A program made the translations under genes and the position numbers. DNA of 38,605 bases from positions 1 to 38,605 of the IMG/VR virus record IMGVR_UViG_3300046170_000156; one strand, given 5' to 3'. Positions 13,997 through 38,605 of this stretch are shown here, in pieces. The notes below the pieces were generated by a model. It searched no databases and was not told where the DNA came from. It saw nothing but the letters and a program-made list of their open reading frames with translations. Positions within the stretch are counted from its first letter, which is position 1, and the number at the start of each line of letters is the position of its first letter. Origin of the DNA: a virus.

Positions 13997-14026
13997 ACCT
14001 TTTCTTTGTATTTTCAGGAGCGTTCT

Positions 14027-14644
14027 ATGCCTATTTATCGAGGCGATGGTGGTTCAGGTGATGCTACTACAGACGCTTATGCGTCAAAAGTTGCCCAGTA
14101 CGCTGCGAGTGCTTCTGAAAGTGCAAAGGAGGCGAGCCAAAGCGCCCAGAGTGCTGAAGCTTCCAGAGAAGCTACTGAGGCTCTCTACGACGACTTTGAC
14201 AAGCGTTACTTAGGCCCTAAGGCCGTTGAGCCTACCACAGACAACAAAGGTGATCCTCTGGAGACAGGGGCCTTATTCTTTAGTACTACCGACGATGCCA
14301 TGTACATGTACAACGGTACTGTGTGGTTATTCTTAGGCGGCTCTGGTGGCGGTGGTATACGACTAGACGATCTATCTGTTACTGTGGACCCTGTAGGAAC
14401 CGCTAACCTAGAGTACAACAATCTCAGCGGTGTGTTTACGTATACACCACCTGACCTCTCTTCTTACATTACAGCAGACTCTAGCGACACGCTAACTAAT
14501 AAATCAGGTAACATAAGCCAGTGGACTAATGACAGTGGCTATATCTCAGGTAACGAAACTATTACACTGACTGGTGCTGTGACAGGCTCTGGTACAACTT
14601 CTATAGCAACAACACTGTCAACCATTGACGGAGGCTCATATTAA
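14027..14644 (+). CDS. Tail fibre-like structural protein
   Basis: A 205-residue protein from ATG 14027, which has CAGGAG at ideal distance; the open frame extends to 13985 but overlaps the terminator. The order is a Gly/Asp-rich start, an Ala/Ser-rich helix (residues 20-50, repeats of SAxxAxxS), then LETGALFFSTTDDAMYMYNGTVW, a module common in tail-fibre and appendage proteins of marine phages, and a C-terminal beta-rich part with LTNKSGNISQWTNDSGY and ending TIDGGSY. The next gene begins immediately. Probably an adaptor or baseplate-side fibre segment. Confidence 0.7.
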   Translation: MPIYRGDGGSGDATTDAYASKVAQYAASASESAKEASQSAQSAEASREATEALYDDFDKRYLGPKAVEPTTDNKGDPLETGALFFSTTDDAMYMYNGTVWLFLGGSGGGGIRLDDLSVTVDPVGTANLEYNNLSGVFTYTPPDLSSYITADSSDTLTNKSGNISQWTNDSGYISGNETITLTGAVTGSGTTSIATTLSTIDGGSY

Positions 14645-15414
14645 TGGCTACTAAAATTATTACTAAGACTGGTTCAGGTGCTCCCACGACAAGCGATGTA
14701 GACAGAGGTGAACTAGCGGTTGACTTAACTAATAAGCAACTGTATACCAATGATGGTTCTTCAATTATTAAGCTAGGTGGTGCTGGTGATGCAGGGCAGT
14801 GGTCTCTGGCTTCTAACGGCGACGACATCTATTATGACTCTGGCAACGTAGGCATTGGTGTAGAAAACCCCTCTCACGCTTTAAATGTCTTCTCTGGATT
14901 TGAGGAAATTGCAAGGTTTCAAGGCGAGTCAAGTTTCAACCTAGACCTAAGCAATCCGGGCGGTACTAGATTTGATTTTAAAGTTGGATCTGCAGTTGGG
15001 GAATACTCATTCTCTAATAGTGCAAAAGAACTTGTCAGAATCGCCGCTGATGGCAACGTGGGCATTGGCACTGAGAGTCCCGCCGCTTACGGAAGGCTGT
15101 CACTCATTCAGACAGAAGATTCAGGTGTAGGCGGCCTTGCAATTGTAGATTCTACTTACGCGCAGTCATTGAAGCTTTGGTGCGAGGCTGATAAGGCACA
15201 TATTTTCTCTGGCAATAGCGGGCAAAAAGACTTAGCCATCAACGCCGGTGGTGGAAAAGTGGGCATCGGAGGAGAACCCGGAACAAGGACAGCCGCTGAC
15301 TACATCGACCAAGCCAAGGCAAAGATCAAGTCTTGGACTGCCGCTATCAAGACAAAACTTGATGAGGAACCCAAGGCCAATAAGAAGGCTGTCACGCTTG
15401 AGGTTACTGACTGA
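14644..15414 (+). CDS. Second tail fibre, fragment 1
   Basis: 256 residues starting MATKIITKTGSGAPTTSDVDRGELAVDLTNKQLYT, a beta module usual in marine phage fibres, followed by repeats of the type GNVGIGTESPA, which typify fibre shafts that often lead to a chaperone or receptor domain. The frame stops at TGA 15412-15414. There the tetranucleotide TGAC is duplicated (ACTGACTGACGCC); removing one copy joins EVTD to AFEVIPTEDLVAEWM without a gap. It is therefore one gene of about 565 residues, to 16342, broken by a 4-base duplication. Confidence 0.78.
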   Translation: MATKIITKTGSGAPTTSDVDRGELAVDLTNKQLYTNDGSSIIKLGGAGDAGQWSLASNGDDIYYDSGNVGIGVENPSHALNVFSGFEEIARFQGESSFNLDLSNPGGTRFDFKVGSAVGEYSFSNSAKELVRIAADGNVGIGTESPAAYGRLSLIQTEDSGVGGLAIVDSTYAQSLKLWCEADKAHIFSGNSGQKDLAINAGGGKVGIGGEPGTRTAADYIDQAKAKIKSWTAAIKTKLDEEPKANKKAVTLEVTD

Positions 15415-16342
15415 CGCCTTTGAGGTAATACCCACTGAGGACTTAGTAGCCGAGTGGATGGCAGAGAGGGCCATTGGTGGTGGTAATGCTAAGTTACAGG
15501 TTGCTGGTGATGTTTACGCCACAGGATTTGCCCCCAGCAATTCCAATAGCACAATTAAGGGGATATACGGATCTTCTGTTCATATAGACACTGGCGGAGC
15601 ATTGCAGATAGGCCGCACTGGTGCTGGCAATAACTGGGTCTACATGGATATTCATGGCTCTACTCCGAGTTTCTACCCTAATTCTGGATTCGACTTCAAC
15701 ATTGGAAGGACGGACAGAAGATTCAAAAACGGTTACTTCAGCGGCTACATTGCCGCACAGGGGCTAGAGTGTCCCGGTTATGTCTATAGCTCAGATAACG
15801 CAGGCATTACCTTCGGTACTAATGCTATTTACCCAATTAGCTCAGCAAACGCTGTCTCAAATGGGTCTGTAGATCTGGGAGCAACAGCAAACAGATTCAA
15901 AGACGCCCATTTCAGCGGCGATGTCAACGCTAACCGATTCACCTCTGGGCAATACTCCGCGCCGAGTACTACAACGTACTTCCAACTCAACAGTGGATCT
16001 ACCAACGTATTGGAATTAAGAGAAACGATATTCTTTCCCTATACCCATGACTACACTACTTTAGGTAGGGGCGACAAGAGGTGGAAAGACGCTTACTTCA
16101 GCGGCACCATCTACGGCGATGTTGATGGAGCCTTCTTACGCGCTGAAACAATAGTACAAGACGGCGCACCTGTGGTTGACTCTCTGCAGATCATACGAGC
16201 CTTTATGAAGCTCCGTGATGCTGTAGACGATCCTGATTCGTCTGTGGAGGAACTCAGGGACAAGCTTAAGGTAGCTGTGGTAGACATCATTGACCAGTTT
16301 CAGGATTTGGTTGACTCTGTAGAGCCTGATAGAGAGCGATAA
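15413..16342 (+). CDS. Second tail fibre, fragment 2 (C-terminal part)
   Basis: About 309 residues in the frame following the TGAC duplication (the frame is open from 15248 but codes meaningfully only after the break). It has three copies of an (R/N)RFKxxxFSG-like unit: DRRFKNGYFSGYIA, NRFKDAHFSGDV and KRWKDAYFSGTI, a repeat known from phage fibre tips. The end is helical and acidic (LQIIRAFMKLRDAVDDPDSSVEELRDKLK), as in the C-terminal helices of fibres that trimerise. No own ribosome binding site is evident at the break. Confidence 0.75.
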   Translation, partial: DAFEVIPTEDLVAEWMAERAIGGGNAKLQVAGDVYATGFAPSNSNSTIKGIYGSSVHIDTGGALQIGRTGAGNNWVYMDIHGSTPSFYPNSGFDFNIGRTDRRFKNGYFSGYIAAQGLECPGYVYSSDNAGITFGTNAIYPISSANAVSNGSVDLGATANRFKDAHFSGDVNANRFTSGQYSAPSTTTYFQLNSGSTNVLELRETIFFPYTHDYTTLGRGDKRWKDAYFSGTIYGDVDGAFLRAETIVQDGAPVVDSLQIIRAFMKLRDAVDDPDSSVEELRDKLKVAVVDIIDQFQDLVDSVEPDRER

Positions 16343-16348
16343 GTAATT

Positions 16349-19300
16349 ATGGATGATCCTTTTGACTCTGTAGACGGCGACAGCCTGCCTAACGACGAAA
16401 GCGTTGTTGACTTACTACAACAGTACATCAATGCTGGTTTTAACACCGTTGGTCCTCAGGGATCGTCTGATCCAGAATACAAAACACTACAGGCATACCT
16501 TAGACAGATCTTTGGTGATCTTCCAGAAGGTGCCGTTGATTGGCGGTCAAGCGACTTAAACGGTGACGGAGTAAACGAGCTTTACGCTGTAGATGCTGAC
16601 GGTAATCCAATTAATGTTTACGGGTACGACGACGATGGCGAAACTGAGTCAACAGCCTACTCCGACTACCTCAGAGACACTGTTTACGGCGGTACTACCC
16701 CGACGACTTGGGACGACATAGTAAAAATACTTAAGGCAGAGGGTTACGACGACGAAGCCATAGAAGAAGTTAGAGGTAGCATCAAATGTCTTACTAATGC
16801 TAATGAAATCCAATGTGGCGAAAACGAAAAATTCCAAGGAAGCGTAGTTCTCGCAGGAATACTCAACAACAGTGGTTACGACGGAAGCTGGTGGGACGTA
16901 AGACCTACAGCGGGTCAGCCGTGTCAAACTGATGACGGAAAGCAAGGAGAATACGATACAAATGGCGGCTGTACGCCTAATGAGTATCAGGAAGGGGATA
17001 GCTGCCCTACGGTTCCTAACGGGCCTAAAGATGGTATTATAGAAAACGGTGTGTGTGTTGGCGGCCCAGAAGGACCAGACTGCACAGTTATTACTCAAGA
17101 AAACGCAGAAGAGTGTGAAACAGATTTAGACAACTTAGTTGAATGTGCTGATAATCTAGTTACTTTTGATGATGGAGACGGAAATACAGTAGAACGCCCT
17201 GTTTACGCGAGATCACAAGAAGACTGCGATAATAATACTAACACGCTGTTTAACTGTGGTGGAGGAATTTTTGCTAACAGTAGAAACGAGTGTCCTGACG
17301 TTGGCGGCGTTGGGGAGTTCTGTGATGATCCTGCAAACGCTAACGAACAAAAGTGCATAGATAAGTCTTTTCAAGACTACGTAGATGAAGTAGGCGAGGA
17401 CATTGCTAACACTGCTAAGGGCATCTACGACGACTTTAAAGACGTAATTACAGACTGCGCTGGAAACCCTCTAGAATGTATTAAGAAAATTGGTGACAAA
17501 GTTGCAGAAGCAGGTATTCCTGAAAAGTGTCAAGACTTAAAAACCTGTAACGAGGCAGACCCAGATAGCAACACGTACTGCTGGAAAGACTGTGTAAACT
17601 TTAATGTTTTAGCAGGCATACCCGGTTTACCACAACTTCCGGGCATGGGTCAAATTGATGTAGGCACCTACCGCGACTTTGAGGACTTTCTCAAGGGCAT
17701 CGGAAAAGACATCGGTGATTTTATAGAAGACCCTGCGGGAACACTAGAGGGTTGGAAAGACGCCGTCCTTAAAAAAGTTAAAGAAATTTTTGGTGACGCA
17801 ACTGATACTAAAGCTAGTGACATTACTGATTGGCTCAAAGGAATCTTTGGTGTTTATGCTGCTACTTGGATCTGGGGAGAACTAGAAGAAGAGATCACAA
17901 ACCTACTTCCTGTTGCACCTATTGACGAAGACTGTGAAGAAATAGATGAAACAAACTTTGAAAAATGCGGCTACCAAGACTGTGGTGGTGGCATATACGT
18001 AAAAAACGAAGAGTCTTGTGACGATGTTGAAAACTTTGATTGCTCTACGGTTGCAAGGCAGGGTGGCGTAGTTCAAGCAGGAACTGAAAAACAAGATGAA
18101 AACTGCGGTGAGTGTTTAGAAAGCTACGAAGAAGACGCTGATGGAAACTGCATAGAAAAAGAAGTACCACCAGAATGCGAAGGGCCGACAGCAGGAGAAT
18201 GTACAGCGCTTCACAAAGAACACCTTTCTTGTACAGACCTTGAGGACGCAAGCTGTGGCGAGTGCTTAGAAGGGTACACAGAAAATGACGAAGGCGTGTG
18301 TATTAAAGACGGCAGCGTAACACCCACAGGACCAGACGGTATTACGTGTGAAGACGGTTATCCAGAAGGTGCTGTGACTTTTGCACTTCAAGATCAACAA
18401 AACTGGTGGAAAGGCAACTGCGGAGGATACTGCAACGACGGGACTCTAAGACCTGAAGATGGAGTCTGTCCGGGCGAAGGTGGCGACGACGGTAACGATG
18501 GTGGGAACGGTGACGACCTATGTGAAAACGGCGCTGAGCCTTTCTATATTAATTTTGACGGCGACAAAGATGGAACCTTCACAGACCCTCGTAACGGAAA
18601 GAACTATACTTACGATCCTTGCGATCAAACTCAGCCACCTGTTGAAGTAACTGGTCCTGATGACGGTACTGATGGTACTGACGACGGAAACGGCTTTGTT
18701 GTAAAATGTAACGAACCAAAAATAGGCTTTACGCCCTCTTTTGATTTAGAACTAAACGCGGCTTATGCAGCATACAGCGCAAAGTACGATGCTGATTGTG
18801 GTGGTGGTGGTGGTGAACCTCCCGTAGACCCCACAGAACCCTGTCCTAACTTTAACGGAGTAGAAGGACCAAGGGACACTGAAGGAAACTGCCTTGATTG
18901 CTTTGATCCACTTCACGCTTTAGTCTGTGGCTGGGTAGAGTGTCCTGATGGACTAAGTATGGCTCCTACGTTAGATGGCTGCGAGCAGACATACACTCCT
19001 CCGTGTGACCAGCAGAACAGAGTTACTAGAGATGACGGGTCGTGTGGTGAGTGTAAACCCGGATTTATAGAAGATCCTGAAGGGTTTGACCAGTGTATTA
19101 CAGCGCCTCCAGAGTGTAACGACTGCACATGCGCTGAGTACGCTGCATCTAACCCAGAGGAGTGTGGTATTGAAACTCCTCCTCCCGAAACAACTCCTCC
19201 CCCCGAAACAACTACTCCTCCTCCTAGTACTGGAGGTGGTGGAGGCGGCGGTGGCGGTGGCGGTGGTGGCCTGAGCATAAAGCCTTTCACCATCTCAGGA

Positions 19301-32817: not shown

Positions 32818-34445
32818 AACTCAGTCTCCGGTGGGTTAGGGTTAGCGCACTCGTGGATGCGTCCAGAGATCCTGTCGTACCGCAGGTAACAAGCGGGTCC
32901 AGTTTCACCAGAGTAACGATTCTTTAGGATGCGGACGCACGTAGTGTTACGTATGTCTTCGTCCTCGTTCTGTTGGTCACGCTCCATGCCTATCACAATA
33001 TCGGATAGCTGGGCAATACTCTGAGATCCACGGAGGTCCTGCAGGCTGATCCTGCCACCGTCCTCGTGTGCTGTACCAGAGCTACGCCGCAGGTGCGACA
33101 CTAGGAACAACGTAATCCCTGTCTCTGCCACCAGTGTCCGTAGCTTGGTCATGATCTCGTCTATGGCTTTCCGTTCGTCCCCGTTCTCTTGAGAAGAAAC
33201 CACGATGGACAAGTGGTCGAGTATGATATATCGACAGTCACAGGCCTTTGCCATGTGCCGTACTCTTGAAAGAAGCTCGTCGGCAGACGTTGATCCCCAG
33301 TGATCGAACAGGTAGTAACGTCCAGAGCCCATTGTTGCTTCCCAGTGAGGTCTAAGGTCATCAATAGGCGAGTCTTCCTCCAGATGGAGTCTCCTAGATG
33401 ATGCCACAGACATGATTCCCAGAGCTGTCGTTGCGACATCCTCCTCCAGTGCAAGTACACCGATGTTGGCGTCTGTGCGTTGGAGCAGATCGTACTCAAG
33501 TTCTCTGATAAACTGGGACTTTCCCATACCACTACCGCTGGTGATAGTGACCAATTCGTAGGGTCTGTGTCCTCTTGTGATTTCATTTAGTCCATCCCAC
33601 GGGTACGGTATGCTCTGTACCTGTCGCTTGTTTACTAGCTTATCCCAAGTCTCGTTACCTGCAATGATGCCGTCAGGCCTGTAAGTCTTAGCGTCCCAGA
33701 AGGCCTGTGTAAACTCCTGAATCCGGTTAGCCATGAGCATTTCGCTGGCGTCCTTCATAGGTAGTTTACAGATCTTCAGTTTGTTAGGACTAAATACGTC
33801 CTTGACTTGCTCTAGTGCTAACTCTCCTGCCTTGTCCATATCAAAGCATAGGACTATACTCTCGTAACCCTCTAGCCACTCTAGGTTAGACTTGATCTCC
33901 TTAGAGGCGCTGGAGGCTCCTGCTCTCAGGGATACCACGTCGTACTTCTGTCCGAACATCTCGTAAACTGACATTGCGTCTAGTTCACCCTCTGTTACGA
34001 CTAAGTACTTTCCTGTGCCCCGACAGTGCTTCTGACCAAACAGACCTACGTTACTCTGGTCACCTGAGGCACTAAACTGCTTAGTTTTGACTACACGTTT
34101 CTTAGCCGCTACTAGCTCACCAGTATCTTTATCGTAGTACGGGTAGTAGTGCGTCTCTATAGTCCCGTCTGGTGCGTAGTCTACGGTGACTTGGTAACGT
34201 CTACACGTAGCCTCTGACAGCCTCCTCTCAGGTATAGCAGAGACCACTCCTCGCATGTTTAAGTTAGTAGGTGTAGCCACCCGTTCTGTACTCCTGTGGG
34301 GATCTAGTCCCTCTCCTGTGTTGCCGTTAACGTGATATCCGCAGTCTGAGGAAAAACAATGGCGGCCCCCGTTTTGGTACACCGCCAAGTTATCCTTACT
34401 ACCACACTGAGGACACTCCTCGTGGTATAAGAATTTATCACTCAT
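32814..34445 (-). CDS. Primase-helicase (T7 gp4-like)
   Basis: 543 residues. An N-terminal zinc finger (Cys11, Cys14, Cys30, Cys35), then TOPRIM primase with VVTEGELDAMS (about 150) and LCFDMDKAG (about 200), then a RecA-type DnaB-like helicase: Walker A SGSGMGKS near 305, Walker B YIILDHLSI near 395, LVSHLRR and the C-terminal arginine-rich strand. It unwinds the fork and primes lagging strands with the polymerase encoded next to it. It overlaps SSB by one base. Confidence 0.94.
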   Translation of the reverse strand: MSDKFLYHEECPQCGSKDNLAVYQNGGRHCFSSDCGYHVNGNTGEGLDPHRSTERVATPTNLNMRGVVSAIPERRLSEATCRRYQVTVDYAPDGTIETHYYPYYDKDTGELVAAKKRVVKTKQFSASGDQSNVGLFGQKHCRGTGKYLVVTEGELDAMSVYEMFGQKYDVVSLRAGASSASKEIKSNLEWLEGYESIVLCFDMDKAGELALEQVKDVFSPNKLKICKLPMKDASEMLMANRIQEFTQAFWDAKTYRPDGIIAGNETWDKLVNKRQVQSIPYPWDGLNEITRGHRPYELVTITSGSGMGKSQFIRELEYDLLQRTDANIGVLALEEDVATTALGIMSVASSRRLHLEEDSPIDDLRPHWEATMGSGRYYLFDHWGSTSADELLSRVRHMAKACDCRYIILDHLSIVVSSQENGDERKAIDEIMTKLRTLVAETGITLFLVSHLRRSSGTAHEDGGRISLQDLRGSQSIAQLSDIVIGMERDQQNEDEDIRNTTCVRILKNRYSGETGPACYLRYDRISGRIHECANPNPPETEF

Positions 34446-35090: not shown

Positions 35091-35319
35091 ATTCTTTAGT
35101 AATACTTAAGTATATTTTATCATAGTTCTCCTGTAAAGTCAAGACTTCATCTTGTGTAAAACTACCAGTATTTTCACTTGACTCTAGGTTTTCTAGTTCC
35201 CAGTGAGTCTCTATAGATACTGTAAGGCAGTCTGTACACATATCGTAGTGCTCTCCCCTGTTATCTTTCTTTAGTAACTCTCGTTCGTCTAATATTACGT
35301 CACAAGCTCGACACTTCAT
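35086..35319 (-). CDS. Small zinc-ribbon protein (T7-like early type)
   Basis: 77 residues from ATG 35319; the frame is open further up, but MKCRACD with GGAGG before it is the sensible start. Two CxxC pairs (Cys3/Cys6 and Cys28/Cys31) form a zinc ribbon, after which the chain is acidic. Similar short MKCRACD proteins occur in T7-like phages without a known function. Its start overlaps the previous stop (TAATG). The replication promoter lies within its last codons. Confidence 0.75.
   Translation of the reverse strand: MKCRACDVILDERELLKKDNRGEHYDMCTDCLTVSIETHWELENLESSENTGSFTQDEVLTLQENYDKIYLSITKEF
35114..35142 (-). promoter_or_regulatory. Sigma70-type promoter for replication operon
   Basis: On the minus strand TTGACT (35142-35137), a 17-base spacer and TAAAAT (35119-35114). 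The -35 hexamer is the same as in the two late promoters. It lies inside the 3' end of the zinc-ribbon gene and would start transcription of the 48-residue gene, SSB and the replication genes. Confidence 0.7.
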
Positions 35320-35513
35320 TATCCTTCGTCCTCCGGTCCAAATACTTTTGCGTATGCTCTGCATAGCTCGTTGTAACTCTTGGCCCTGTAGCGGTCCCTG
35401 ATAACCCCACGGGCTAGAGCCACCACTGTAGCAAAGTCTATAAAGTTAAACTCAAACTCTGTAAGATCCTGTATCATTTGTTCCTGTGACAAGTCTGGTT
35501 CATTGTAGTCCAT
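35319..35513 (-). CDS. Hypothetical early protein, 64 residues
   Basis: It begins MDYNEPDLSQEQMIQDLTEFEFNFIDFATVVALARGVIRDRY, then SYNELCRAYAKVFG. It is helical, acidic at the start and mixed later, without cysteines in pairs or membrane segments. The ATG follows the hairpin leader at 35511-35544 (GAGGAGAA), and a TATAAT with TGn lies just upstream. One-base overlap with the zinc-ribbon gene. Function not recognised. Confidence 0.7.
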   Translation of the reverse strand: MDYNEPDLSQEQMIQDLTEFEFNFIDFATVVALARGVIRDRYRAKSYNELCRAYAKVFGPEDEG

Positions 35514-35544
35514 GTTTAATTCTCCTCAGGGGCTCTAGTTCCCC
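35511..35544 (-). repeat. Hairpin-SD leader repeat, copy 3 (variant)
   Basis: On the minus strand GGGG-aactagag-CCCC, then TGAGGAGAA and the ATG at 35513. It shares the pattern GGGG...CTAGAGCCCCTGAGGAGAA with the copies at 37146 and 37398, but the left arm is weaker. The repeat places a stem-loop right before the ribosome binding site. Confidence 0.75.
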
Positions 35545-35558
35545 TTCTTTGGGTCTAT

Positions 35559-35567
35559 ATTATAACA
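35559..35567 (-). promoter_or_regulatory. Extended -10 promoter inside early region
   Basis: On the minus strand TGT-TATAAT then ATAGA, an extended -10 identical over TATAATATAGA to the late promoters. No good -35 at 16-18 bases. It would start a transcript at the leader of the 64-residue gene. Confidence 0.5.
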
Positions 35568-35571
35568 TAAT

Positions 35572-35637
35572 TTATTCCAGTAGAACACTGAGCATCCACA
35601 TAAGTAGAAATAACCCTAGAGCCTCTAGAAATCCCAT
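35572..35637 (-). CDS. Possible 21-residue membrane peptide
   Basis: It starts one base after the stop of the 159-residue gene, with GGAGG at the right distance inside that gene's last codons. The peptide MGFLEALGLFLLMWMLSVLLE is one hydrophobic span. Very short, so chance is possible, but other mini membrane proteins in this genome have the same style. Confidence 0.35.
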   Translation of the reverse strand: MGFLEALGLFLLMWMLSVLLE

Positions 35638-35638
35638 C

Positions 35639-36118
35639 TTATACCGCCTCCCGTCCGTACCATTTCATGGGTATACCTCGTGTGTCCCAATCGTCTGCCT
35701 TGTGGTTGTAGTATACCTGATAGCCCTGTACAGCGTCAACCCTCTTACATTCGTCTGGCATACACTGTGGTGGGTCTTCAAAGGGTGTAACATCGCTCTC
35801 AAGGGCCTCAGGAAGCTCACAGAGGGCTTCTAAGTGCTCTCTAATGGTCTTGTGTACCTTTTTGTAACGTCGCTCATACTCACGCCCAAGAGCCGCTAGG
35901 TGGTGCCATGCCCAGATGTACGCGTTAGCACTAGAGCGTACCCAGACAGCACTAGGGTGGTTCTTGTGGGTACTTTTGTACGCCACCTGTTTCCCGTCTA
36001 GCTCTGCGTGTGCTGTACTGAGTAGCTGTGCTGTCTCTAGTATCATTTTTACCACGTGACGATCACACTGCGCTTGTGCGGCTAGTGTAGGATCACGTGA
36101 CAAGTAAAATATGTTCAT
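35639..36118 (-). CDS. Conserved phage protein of unknown function
   Basis: 159 residues, the largest gene of the early region. It starts MNIFYLSRDPTLAAQAQCDRHVVKMILETAQLLSTAHAELDG, a signature (CD-x-HVVKMILE-x-AQLLSTAH) shared by many phage proteins of unknown role, continuing with KNHPSAVWVRSSANAYIWAWHHL and a C-terminal W/Y-rich part. The conserved Cys/Asp/His/Lys cluster suggests an enzyme or metal site, not proven. Start overlaps the upstream stop by 4 bases. Confidence 0.75.
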   Translation of the reverse strand: MNIFYLSRDPTLAAQAQCDRHVVKMILETAQLLSTAHAELDGKQVAYKSTHKNHPSAVWVRSSANAYIWAWHHLAALGREYERRYKKVHKTIREHLEALCELPEALESDVTPFEDPPQCMPDECKRVDAVQGYQVYYNHKADDWDTRGIPMKWYGREAV

Positions 36119-36315
36119 TTAATTAACTCCTCGCCGTGGGATGTTAAGGCTACTGTGGTAGTGCTCTTTTTTACTAAGCGATGAGGCATATCACGGTCAT
36201 GAGATGCGTGGAGCCTGAGTGCTGATATTGCTTCATCATAGCCTGTAAACTCTTGGCTACATTCTTCCCACTTGCCTGAATCGTCGCTGTAGTATTCTAC
36301 GTAGTATTTGTTCAT
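36115..36315 (-). CDS. Small early protein, paralogue of 36933-37148
   Basis: 66 residues from ATG 36315 (ATGA overlap with the upstream stop; the frame is open to 36330). It begins MNKYYVEYYSDDSGKWEECSQEF, with an Ala/Leu helix and a basic strand after it. The YYxSD-x-GKW pattern, the following acidic turn and an RLHxS segment match the protein at 36933-37148, so the two seem to be duplicates. No function known. Confidence 0.65.
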   Translation of the reverse strand: MNKYYVEYYSDDSGKWEECSQEFTGYDEAISALRLHASHDRDMPHRLVKKSTTTVALTSHGEELIK

Positions 36316-36533
36316 AACTCTGTTCCCCATTCATCCGGTGAATACTTGTAAAACTTGTTCATCTGGTCCTCGTACGTGCAATTGTCGCACAGTCCCGTGT
36401 CTGTGTCTACAGCGTTCACAATCTCGTGGCAACCGTCGCAGACGTGTGTGTACTCTAGTTCCCTCAGGGTCTCGTATGGCCCTGTTCTGTCGTGCCAGTG
36501 GCTGTAGTCATTTAGTACGTCGCTCTCGTTCAT
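36312..36533 (-). CDS. Small zinc-ribbon early protein
   Basis: 73 residues with two CxxC pairs (HVCDGCHE near 31-34 and LCDNCTY near 49-52), 14 residues apart, a compact zinc ribbon. The N-terminus is acidic and aromatic (NESDVLNDYSHWHDRTG), the end is YKYSPDEWGTEL. It sits between the 30-residue membrane peptide and the 66-residue gene in one overlapping chain. Probably protein- or nucleic-acid-binding; role unknown. Confidence 0.68.
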   Translation of the reverse strand: MNESDVLNDYSHWHDRTGPYETLRELEYTHVCDGCHEIVNAVDTDTGLCDNCTYEDQMNKFYKYSPDEWGTEL

Positions 36534-36535
36534 AC

Positions 36536-36628
36536 CTAGTGCTCCTCGTGTTCCTCACTGAATATTAGCCATGCGGTTATCACTAGACAACCAAAGCCCC
36601 ACAACCATAACACGTCAGCCTCGCACAT
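36536..36628 (-). CDS. Mini membrane protein, 30 residues
   Basis: It starts MCEADVLWLWGFGCLVITAWLIF, one hydrophobic span, with an acidic/His tail (SEEHEEH). GGAGGG lies seven bases before the ATG, in the final codons of the upstream gene, which supports real translation. It ends two bases before the start of the zinc-ribbon gene. Function unknown; perhaps acts on the host membrane early. Confidence 0.58.
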   Translation of the reverse strand: MCEADVLWLWGFGCLVITAWLIFSEEHEEH

Positions 36629-36632
36629 GCTA

Positions 36633-36803
36633 TTACCCTCCAAAATAATTTTGGTATTCTGATAGCAGTTGTTCGCTGTTCATAGACTCTAACCATTGTT
36701 CAATACTGCCTAGTTCTTTTTCGTTGAACTGGCCGCATTGGTGCTCATGCTCTATGATCTCATCTATCATCAACTCTAGAATTTTTTCAGATAAAATAAA
36801 CAT
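36633..36803 (-). CDS. Hypothetical early protein, 56 residues
   Basis: It begins MFILSEKILELMIDEIIEHEHQ, then FNEKELGSIEQWLESMNSEQLLSEY. Helical, acidic, and low in cysteine. GGAGGG occurs at the right distance before the ATG. It ends five bases before the 30-residue membrane peptide. No family is recognised. Confidence 0.62.
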   Translation of the reverse strand: MFILSEKILELMIDEIIEHEHQCGQFNEKELGSIEQWLESMNSEQLLSEYQNYFGG

Positions 36804-36857
36804 GCTAGTACCCTCCGGTCAATACTATACTGAGGTCTTGGTCATCTGCCTCAAATG

Positions 36858-36929
36858 TTAAGCCCTAACATAACTAGTCCTGTAGATGCCAGCGTAAAAC
36901 GCATCATCTGTCTTGTAACATATTACCAT
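36858..36929 (-). CDS. Possible 23-residue peptide
   Basis: MVICYKTDDAFYAGIYRTSYVRA starts four bases after the stop of 36933-37148, with AGGAG eleven bases before. It fills part of an otherwise empty stretch (36804-36932). It is short enough to be chance. Confidence 0.3.
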   Translation of the reverse strand: MVICYKTDDAFYAGIYRTSYVRA

Positions 36930-36932
36930 CAG

Positions 36933-37148
36933 TCAAATCTCCTGCCGTTCGCTGTAGCCCTTGTACTCGCTCATGACACTGAGACGGACTATAACACAGT
37001 CTAGGTCAGAGTGTAAACGTATGTGTTCTATCATGCAATCCCTAGCGGCCCACTCGTCGTGGAACACTCCCTCTTCGTACCATTTGCCATTGTTGTCGCT
37101 CCTGTAGTACAGGGCAAACTTCGGTACTTCTGATTTACTTGTATCCAT
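36933..37148 (-). CDS. Small early protein, YYxSD-GKW family
   Basis: 71 residues: MDTSKSEVPKFALYYRSDNNGKWYEEGVFHDEW, then an Ala/Cys helix and RLHSDLDCVIVRLSV. It resembles 36115-36315 over the YYxSD-x-GKW and RLHxS segments, implying a duplication. It is preceded by the hairpin leader copy 1 and TGAGGAGAA. Function not known. Confidence 0.68.
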   Translation of the reverse strand: MDTSKSEVPKFALYYRSDNNGKWYEEGVFHDEWAARDCMIEHIRLHSDLDCVIVRLSVMSEYKGYSERQEI

Positions 37149-37178
37149 GTTCAGTTCTCCTCAGGGGCTCTAGGCCCC
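37146..37178 (-). repeat. Hairpin-SD leader repeat, copy 1
   Basis: On the minus strand GGGGC-CTAGA-GCCCC (37178-37164), then TGAGGAGAA, a short spacer and the ATG at 37148. The upstream gene's TAG (37172-37170) lies in the loop, so the hairpin spans the gene junction. Almost identical to copy 2. Confidence 0.85.
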
Positions 37179-37400
37179 CTCCTCTGTGATGCTATCAAAG
37201 AAGTCCTGTGGCATCTCTACCGCCTCAGTGCCGCCTAGCCACTTGTTAATGTGTCGTGTGGTGGTCTGTGACCATTTGTGAGACGTCCGGACCCATCCCT
37301 GTGGTGTCAGTGCTGCCACTGGCGTCTCGTAGCTAAAGAGCACTGTGTACCCATTAACTAGTACTTCTGTCATGTTGCTACCTACGTTTCTTAATTTCAT
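37170..37400 (-). CDS. Conserved small early protein
   Basis: 76 residues: MKLRNVGSNMTEVLVNGYTVLFSYETPVAALTPQGWVRTSHKWSQTTTRHINKWLGG. The pattern FSYETPVAA...RTxxKWSxTTTRHINxWL is found in short phage proteins that share no known function. The ATG follows hairpin leader copy 2. Its stop codon lies in leader copy 1. Confidence 0.72.
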   Translation of the reverse strand: MKLRNVGSNMTEVLVNGYTVLFSYETPVAALTPQGWVRTSHKWSQTTTRHINKWLGGTEAVEMPQDFFDSITEEGA

Positions 37401-37430
37401 GTTTAGTTCTCCTCAGGGGCTCTAGGCCCC
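37398..37430 (-). repeat. Hairpin-SD leader repeat, copy 2
   Basis: On the minus strand GGGGC-CTAGA-GCCCC, then TGAGGAGAA and the ATG at 37400; the stop TAG of the upstream gene (37424-37422) is in the loop, as in copy 1. The two copies differ at a single base between hairpin and ATG. Confidence 0.85.
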
Positions 37431-37613
37431 TCTAGTGTCTAGGACTATTTCGGTTGCTATACCCTGTACAGTGTACATAAGATCATAAGAGTATAACCTA
37501 TCCTCCGCACCTGTGTAAGTCTCGTGTGCCGATATTAGGCGACTGTCTACCCTAAACTCCCACAGGTTGCTTATGTCGTTTTTTGCTACTCTTAAGTGCC
37601 TAGTATTACTCAT
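37422..37613 (-). CDS. Hypothetical early protein, 63 residues
   Basis: It starts MSNTRHLRVAKNDISNLWEFRVDSRLISAHETYTGAEDRLYSYDL, beta-rich and without cysteines, ending in EIVLDTRGA. The ATG follows the GGAGGCCTGAGGCC leader. Its stop lies in the hairpin of leader copy 2. No known family. Confidence 0.65.
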   Translation of the reverse strand: MSNTRHLRVAKNDISNLWEFRVDSRLISAHETYTGAEDRLYSYDLMYTVQGIATEIVLDTRGA

Positions 37614-37627
37614 GGCCTCAGGCCTCC
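37611..37627 (-). repeat. GGCC leader repeat, copy 1
   Basis: On the minus strand GGAGGCCTGAGGCCATG: a Shine-Dalgarno GGAGG joined to a small GGCC-TGA-GGCC hairpin ending at the start codon. The same 17 bases occur at 37833-37849. Confidence 0.8.
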
Positions 37628-37631
37628 CTTG

Positions 37632-37835
37632 TTAACCTAATATGTCGCTAGTGTCGTACCCGTTAGCGTCTAACCACTCTCTGGCCTCTGGTATCATACA
37701 GAAGGACATGTCGTAATCATATACGTGCTTCCCTTCCACGTAGACGCATATGGCATCGTCCTCGCCCCTAATGATGTGCTCAAAGTATACACTGTCAGTG
37801 CCTACGTATACGCTGTAGTCTTTATGTATTGCCAT
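37632..37835 (-). CDS. Hypothetical early protein, 67 residues
   Basis: It starts MAIHKDYSVYVGTDSVYFEHIIRGEDDAICVYVEGKHVYDYDMSF, beta-rich with one pair of distant cysteines, and ends in a short helix (EAREWLDANGYDTSDILG). The ATG is part of the second GGCC leader copy. Acidic; no motif. Early position suggests a host-interaction role. Confidence 0.65.
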   Translation of the reverse strand: MAIHKDYSVYVGTDSVYFEHIIRGEDDAICVYVEGKHVYDYDMSFCMIPEAREWLDANGYDTSDILG

Positions 37836-37849
37836 GGCCTCAGGCCTCC
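37833..37849 (-). repeat. GGCC leader repeat, copy 2
   Basis: Exact 17-base copy of 37611-37627, including the start codon of the 67-residue gene. The hairpin would abut the ATG and could tune initiation. Confidence 0.8.
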
Positions 37850-38295: not shown

Positions 38296-38324
38296 TTGAC
38301 ATCTTGTGTTGTCTGTGCTTGCGG
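38296..38324 (+). promoter_or_regulatory. Promoter-like element D
   Basis: TTGACA 38296-38301, a 17-base spacer with TCTTGTG and CTGTG, then TTGCGG, a very poor -10. It may be a degenerate family member or a binding site, not a promoter. Confidence 0.25.
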
Positions 38325-38346
38325 TGTGCCAGTGGGTAGCCTGAGG

Positions 38347-38375
38347 GTCCTACACTGGTTCACACACTTTGTCAA
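38347..38375 (-). promoter_or_regulatory. Promoter-like element E reading into early genes
   Basis: On the minus strand TTGACA (38375-38370), a 17-base spacer and TAGGAC (38352-38347). It would start about 240 bases before the first early gene. The -10 matches three of six consensus bases. A second element (F) reads the same way from the terminal repeat. Confidence 0.45.
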
Positions 38376-38605
38376 CACATGTTTACCTGTGAATATTCCC
38401 ATCGTGTTACGCTTGACATCTCGTGTCATCTGTGGTAGGCCTTTGGGCCTCGTGACTACCACAGTCTGCGCCTCGTGTCAACCCTTGTGTCAACGTGAAT
38501 AGTACCAAAGTTTATCCTTGACACCCGTGTCTGCCTGTGTTAGACTGGAGGGTCGGCCTCATGTTGGGACCGGGGGGGCCGGGATTACTCATGAATACTA
38601 TAGTT
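38349..38605. repeat. Right copy of 257-bp direct terminal repeat
   Basis: Exact copy of 1-257. It shows that the window holds one complete genome unit of 38348 bases plus the repeat. It lies between the early genes read leftward (first start at 38100) and the late genes read rightward (first start at 715), where a T7-like phage would carry its terminal redundancy. Confidence 0.9.

Follow-up and report, generated by a model that had tools for sequence, protein, structure and literature searches.

Boundary sequences are exemplified by those of the lambdoid phages. Cyanobacteria carry small dispersed repeats (Elhai 2008, cited in PMC3116915). These are very small palindromic units that are present in some relatives and absent in others. 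Short boundary sequences at module junctions have been discussed (PMC3029335). In Cluster K mycobacteriophages a short repeat with a Shine-Dalgarno core, SAS/ESAS, is present in 11–19 copies per genome; it is found right at the start codons in different families of non-structural genes, sometimes contains the upstream stop codon, and is missing from some family members (PMC3203893). The 13-bp SAS consensus, GGGATAGGAGCCC, is situated 3–7 bp from the start and is described as non-palindromic (PMC3203893). In T4-type phages the PeSLs, cassettes of an early promoter plus a stem-loop, mediate modular shuffling (Arbiol 2010; Comeau 2014; as cited in PMC4503421). The present analysis concerns short repeated sequences, termed leaders, that precede start codons in the early region of IMG/VR virus record IMGVR_UViG_3300046170_000156. 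This podovirus-like contig of 38,605 nucleotides (38.6 kb) was analyzed over its whole length and is referred to as the window.

The leaders are of two types, all on the minus strand. Type 1, GGGGCCTAGAGCCCC-TGAGGAG-AACTRAAC-ATG (written out, GGGGC-CTAGA-GCCCC-TGAGGAG-AACTRAAC-ATG), is found at the starts at 37148 and 37400, and the two copies differ at one position. Type 2, GGAGGCCTGAGGCC-ATG, is found at the starts at 37613 and 37835. Sequence comparisons with related phages suggest that the leaders are start modules that were probably spread by short-homology recombination and then became junctions for gene cassettes.

Similar to the Cluster K SAS, the leaders are repeated at the starts of different non-structural gene families. 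Unlike the SAS, neither GGAGGCCTGAGGCC nor GGGGCCTAGAGCCCC-TGAGGAG fits the consensus; in type 2 a palindrome adjoins the ATG and in type 1 a hairpin precedes the Shine-Dalgarno sequence, the upstream stop codon is in the loop, and gene shuffling is visible at the repeats. The PeSLs, as summarized in the source cited, share with the leaders a repeated intergenic regulatory cassette whose stem-loop serves as homology for shuffling, which is seen here in gene orders and identity breaks. However the PeSLs of that summary are promoter plus terminator, whereas the leaders are translation starts of 14–34 bp, often with a stop codon and without promoter or terminator. As with boundary sequences, a short shared sequence joins unrelated modules and permits homologous exchange, here evident from the break at the leader edge and from single-gene differences, but the leader is repeated many times per genome and is an evident start signal. 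Type 1 resembles the cyanobacterial repeats as a tiny palindromic unit present in some relatives and absent in others; it differs in that it is in a phage, has four copies in the window, is tied to AGGAG and is copied with leader flanks. Thus the leaders act like PeSLs and boundary sequences and resemble SAS, yet are not SAS by sequence and do not have the promoter that defines PeSLs.

Leaders in the window

The original prediction, made from the window alone, listed five leaders of two repeated kinds joining early genes, and all five were confirmed at their places (Table 1). The window has two copies each of GGGGCNNNNNGCCCC and GGCCTGAGGCC, where shuffled sequences give an expectation of 0.01 each. 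Upstream regions of starts have 22 ten-mers in common, 17 among the type-1 sites and five between the type-2 sites; random placement gives a mean of 0.29 and a maximum of 8. Chance and base composition are ruled out as the source of the leaders by these shuffles, by the ten-mer sharing and by the palindrome counts given below.

It was also proposed that the upstream stop codon is in the type-1 hairpin loop. This is correct at 37148 and 37400, where the loops hold the TAG stop codons of genes 37170–37400 and 37422–37613, respectively. The variant at 35513 does not join two closely spaced genes; it is in a 5′ untranslated region (5′UTR), just past a TATAAT-like box, and the preceding gene ends about 95 nt before it. 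At the two type-2 copies of the window the upstream stop codons are 18 and 73 nt away, outside of the loop. An additional type-1-like copy, inside the primase-helicase gene at 34272–34321, had been overlooked.

Type-2 leaders in related phages

The leader-bearing group consists of uncultured ocean-type viruses of bacteria. In 96 contigs of this clade (1.03 Mb), all 57 GGCCTNAGGCC palindromes are directly before a start codon, and 0.4 palindromes are expected. Members of about 20 gene families, from about 25 contigs, have the type-2 leader in front of them, and the most widely shared upstream 12-mer, AGGCCTGAGGCC, precedes 20 families in 27 contigs. Type 2 is thus a device used clade-wide. The same leader is found beside different genes in related phages, as was predicted, and is not unique to one genome with fixed neighbors. 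An exact scan of IMG/VR with GGAGGCCTGAGGCCATG finds 24 stretches, or 34 with any middle loop base, some with six or seven copies; all matches are from the clade of the window except those in G+C-rich contigs.

Of 59 sites selected with a pattern that also admits a terminal GGCT, 47 have the loop TGA, nine TAA and three TCA. In 31 of 55 type-2 junctions of the clade the TGA or TAA of the loop terminates the upstream gene. At these the upstream protein ends in ...EA, often ...EEA, and the next ATG comes after GGCC. Homologous genes occur both with and without the leader: it precedes nine of 12 homologues in the MAIHK family, and four homologues of the MSNTR family (gene 37422–37613) elsewhere do not have it. 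A general scan of the relatives for hairpin leaders found no third type repeated before several families.

A cellular origin was considered and rejected; GAGGAGGCCTGAGGCCATG is present just once in each of eight cellular contigs and is not a repeated element there. In three of the nearest isolates by primase (at most 48% identity), no palindrome was found in the regions read, and their starts share at most Shine-Dalgarno-like ten-mers and one other ten-mer.

Similar junctions are found in a 68% G+C phage contig, IMGVR_UViG_3300037070_003571 (L142), where positions 14000–17300 contain small open frames joined by GGAGGCCTRA-NNNN-ATG-like sequences; the ATGs at 14957 and 15515 are each preceded by the exact type-2 leader. 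These frames have no PHROG match and are putative genes only. The search of L142 found no member of the primase-helicase family and a weakly similar terminase; the phage is apparently unrelated to the clade of the window. Its junctions, the exact leader included, suggest that the type-2 layout is useful or readily reached independently.

Early regions of the relatives (e.g. L048, L061, L099) also show a second frequent junction style, GAGGGTAA-NNNN-ATG, which precedes many leaderless small genes; an arrangement of stop codon, 4 nt and start codon is therefore general in the clade. In L015 (about 1097–1133), and also in L106, there is a 36-bp insertion relative to L102 that contains a terminator-like hairpin, GGGCC-TTCG-GGCCC, just before a type-2 leader.

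Gene exchange at the leaders

Three related contigs differ by whole genes between leaders (L). The gene order in L106 is MSNYQ=L=MSTYN=L=MGYDV=L=MQKII; in L015, MSTYN is missing (MSNYQ=L=MGYDV=L=MQKII), and in L107 both MSTYN and MGYDV are missing (MSNYQ=L=MQKII). Across leaders, MAIHK genes are preceded by six different families and followed by five. Where two sites have the same upstream gene and different downstream genes, identity is about 0.75 up to the leader and 0.2–0.3 past the ATG, and pairs with the same downstream gene and different upstream genes show the reverse; over both cases the shared side has about 0.75–0.85. The drop to the level of random sequence coincides exactly with the edge of the leader, the identity inside the leader itself being partly fixed by the pattern used to choose the sites.

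The DNA identity of cassette genes is decoupled from that of core genes: 0.95 versus 0.77 for MAIHK between the window and L072, and 0.95 versus 0.83 between L015 and L023. Among leader-junction pairs with one side in common, 80% have different neighbors, as against 51% of such pairs at leaderless junctions of the same interval, a difference reached in 94 of 2000 label permutations that ignore relatedness. The leaders thus appear to be favored but not exclusive exchange points. The suggestion that they serve for swapping small genes gains support in the case of type 2, since one side of the leader is homologous and the other unrelated, and single genes are cleanly gained or lost between leaders.

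Structure and translation

With predicted folding energies of −9 to −13 kcal/mol the type-1 hairpins are stable, and most of the Shine-Dalgarno sequence that follows is free; the type-2 hairpin (−6.1) abuts the ATG and overlaps the Shine-Dalgarno sequence in part. One stem pair of type 1 differs between copies (C-G to A-T) whereas the CTAGA loop does not, which amounts to one compensatory change. Compensatory changes in the type-2 stem were looked for and none was found; the loop and last base vary and some stems are broken. Translational coupling that works through unfolding or through reinitiation is well documented (PMC12548453) and requires very short distances between stop and start (PMC10666635). 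The stop codon in the loop, 4 nt before the start at the 31 junctions noted above but not in the type-2 copies of the window, is a layout that would suit such coupling, and control of translation by the leaders, also part of the original prediction, is plausible from their arrangement.

A purely translational role, in which selection keeps hairpin and Shine-Dalgarno sequence to couple or tune translation of early genes and shuffling merely reflects gene borders that tolerate breaks, is a real possibility, if a somewhat doubtful one. The fixed position relative to the ATG, the stop codon in the loop, the free Shine-Dalgarno sequence of type 1, its compensatory pair and the junctions of L142 are all consistent with it. 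However the type-2 stem sequence is nearly invariant although any stem would serve, and several copies have broken, uncompensated stems (GGACTGAGGCC, GGGCTGAGGCC). In addition, many homologous genes manage without a leader, and no start codon is found at leader distance from the copy within the primase gene.

Rfam shows no match in the window. The leaders were rejected as transcription terminators, the sole terminator-like site, located at the 35513 variant, being on the opposite strand. A scan with a sigma-70-like consensus shows no site inside the leaders; the 35513 variant alone follows a TATAAT-like box.

Type-1 leaders and their copies

The type-1 module, searched in IMG/VR as GGGNCTAGANCCCCNNAGGAG, is found in four contigs only (L006–L009), all of them nearest relatives of the window. 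Type 1 is thus nearly restricted to this group, yet its neighbors vary, i.e. two small genes, one 5′UTR and the interior of the primase gene. In the 5′UTR of the 35319–35513 gene the hairpin is present in L007 and L009 and missing in L008 and L010. L009 has GACCCTAAGGAGGGGACTAGATCCCCTAAGGAGAACTAAAC and L008 has GACCCAAAGGAGAACTAAAC, a presence/absence of about 21 bp in a region where the two are 90–96% identical. Homologues of gene 37422 end in ordinary junctions at the place of the type-1 leader.

In the primase-helicase gene, the window and L006–L009 have an in-frame sequence AGGAGAGGGACTAGATCCCCACAGGAG...GAAC that makes the gene 21 bp longer than in L010–L014; the remaining relatives with an extracted segment, L010–L014 among them, do not have the copy. 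Local alignment of the primase segment with the leader, run on L009, spans about 46 nt with a score of 50, whereas the maximum in 300 shuffles is 39 and the L010 primase region scores 22. The homology takes in the Shine-Dalgarno sequence, the spacer and the edges (AGGAG-GG at one end and GTGGA-TACA at the other), and for this reason the primase copy would be best explained by a leader segment that was copied between short edges of identical sequence. A short identical sequence is present at both edges of the type-1 presence/absence and copy sites.

These sites may also be viewed as insertions of a very small mobile palindrome, like the cyanobacterial dispersed repeats, at AGGAG with a target duplication of about 7 bp, the leader role being secondary. 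NNAGGAG is on both sides of the hairpin in the L009 5′UTR and in primase, both sites show the presence/absence of about 21 bp, and GAGGAG is on either side of the hairpin at 37149–37178. Such an origin is nonetheless unlikely, as the homology between leader and primase runs past the supposed duplication (ACTRAAC, GTGGA-TACA) and is better fitted by copying of a longer segment, the 37400 copy has no flank repeat, and four sites only are known. When relatives were scanned generally for insertions that carry hairpins, mostly unrelated indels were returned. It is very improbable that the palindromes are DNA operators through which a bound protein, e.g. a repressor or methylase, would act on early genes. 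In DNA, GGCCTSAGGCC is a perfect odd palindrome, copies with a TCA loop correspond to the same duplex seen from its other strand, and the palindromes are restricted to the early region, but they always adjoin the start codon exactly, behind a Shine-Dalgarno sequence, no promoter-like site is within the leaders, and the type-1 center is not perfectly palindromic in DNA.

L009 has an extra sequence between its homologue of the 35319 gene and the MRCRACD gene, with an open frame that by eye is like a small HNH-type endonuclease. The window does not have this extra sequence at the corresponding place.

Proposed origin of the leader junctions

In the proposed process of module spread and cassette exchange, each leader would be a translation-start module with a Shine-Dalgarno sequence, a small G+C-rich hairpin, fixed spacing to the start and often the stop codon of the preceding gene. 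The hairpin may couple downstream translation to upstream termination. Ectopic recombination at short homologies would spread the modules within and between genomes of the clade. The same 14–34 bp at many junctions would then act as homology patches for the gain, loss and re-ordering of small early genes, and because each module gives a full start to the next gene and often closes the upstream frame, small genes could be exchanged without damage. The exchange may be carried out by the annealing, exonuclease and resolvase proteins of the phage itself, as it encodes a Gp2.5-like single-stranded DNA-binding protein (SSB), a Cas4-type exonuclease and a T7-type endonuclease; its recombination genes match phrog_112, phrog_1990 and phrog_945. 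Comparison of the relatives points to this process through the recurrence of leaders beside unrelated genes, the sharp homology breaks, the single-gene presence/absence, the type-1 presence/absence in the 5′UTR and the primase copy.

Several points weigh against it. The excess of neighbor switching at leader junctions is modest, and leaderless junctions shuffle too. The donor and recipient in the primase event are deduced from the relatives, and the order of loss and gain at the 5′UTR site is uncertain. Because L142 has like junctions, part of the type-2 sequence may be convergent instead of copied. A further step, that the leaders are self-spreading, is proposed tentatively and is rather doubtful: a start module of 20–46 bp would be copied by microhomology to other Shine-Dalgarno-like sites, coding sequence included, and thereby build the junctions that turn the early region into an array of freely exchanged gene cassettes.

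The leaders bear on the old question of how single small genes are swapped between phages without breaking operons. Here the junction sequence is identified, repeated and tied to the translation start, and its own copying can be traced between near relatives. This provides a concrete system in which short shared start modules can be tested as crossover sites, and a simple motif for spotting fast-exchanging early genes in uncultured marine phages.

Genes and other features of the window

Table 1. Positions of leaders, leader copies and adjoining small genes in the window
Feature	Position	Strand	Description
Type-2 leader GGAGGCC-TGA-GGCC	37836–37849	−	directly before ATG of gene 37632–37835
Type-2 leader	37614–37627	−	before ATG of gene 37422–37613
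Type-1 leader	37401–37430	−	hairpin GGGGC-CTAGA-GCCCC 37416–37430, TGAGGAG 37409–37415, AACTAAAC; before gene 37170–37400
Type-1 leader	37149–37178	−	hairpin 37164–37178, TGAGGAG 37157–37163, AACTGAAC; before gene 36933–37148
Type-1 variant GGGGAACTAGAGCCCC-TGAGGAG-AATTAAAC	35514–35544	−	5′UTR of gene 35319–35513
In-frame type-1 leader copy AGGAG-A-GGGACTAGATCCCC-ACAGGAG-TACAGAAC...	34272–34321	−	inside primase-helicase gene; adds ...GLDPHRS...
Small early gene, 67 aa, MAIHK family	37632–37835	−	cassette with type-2 leader before and after
Small early gene, 63 aa, MSNTR family	37422–37613	−	
Small early gene, 76 aa, phrog_5643 (function unassigned)	37170–37400	−	cyanophage homologues
Small early gene, 71 aa, function unassigned	36933–37148	−	
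Small gene, 64 aa	35319–35513	−	kept in most relatives; 5′UTR bears type-1 variant

The plus strand of the window has terminase and portal genes. The minus strand has ribonucleotide reductase, endonuclease, exonuclease, DNA polymerase, primase-helicase and Gp2.5-like SSB genes, followed by a run of small genes to 38127 with mostly unassigned function; among these the MAIHK-family gene matches neither PHROG nor Pfam entries. None of 50,697 phage records matches the early region at the DNA level, and no isolated phage is close: compared with phages of Pelagibacter, Roseobacter and Synechococcus, identity is about 24% for the portal and at most 48% for the primase.

The open reading frame at 35639–36118 (minus strand) encodes a 159-aa protein that matches phrog_624 (DNA binding protein). 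Its Pfam match to pyrimidine dimer DNA glycosylase is just under the cut-off, and it is a possible DNA repair enzyme candidate. Near the right end, at 38296–38546, there are several TTGACA boxes on the plus strand and more TTGACA on the minus strand, which are promoter-like.

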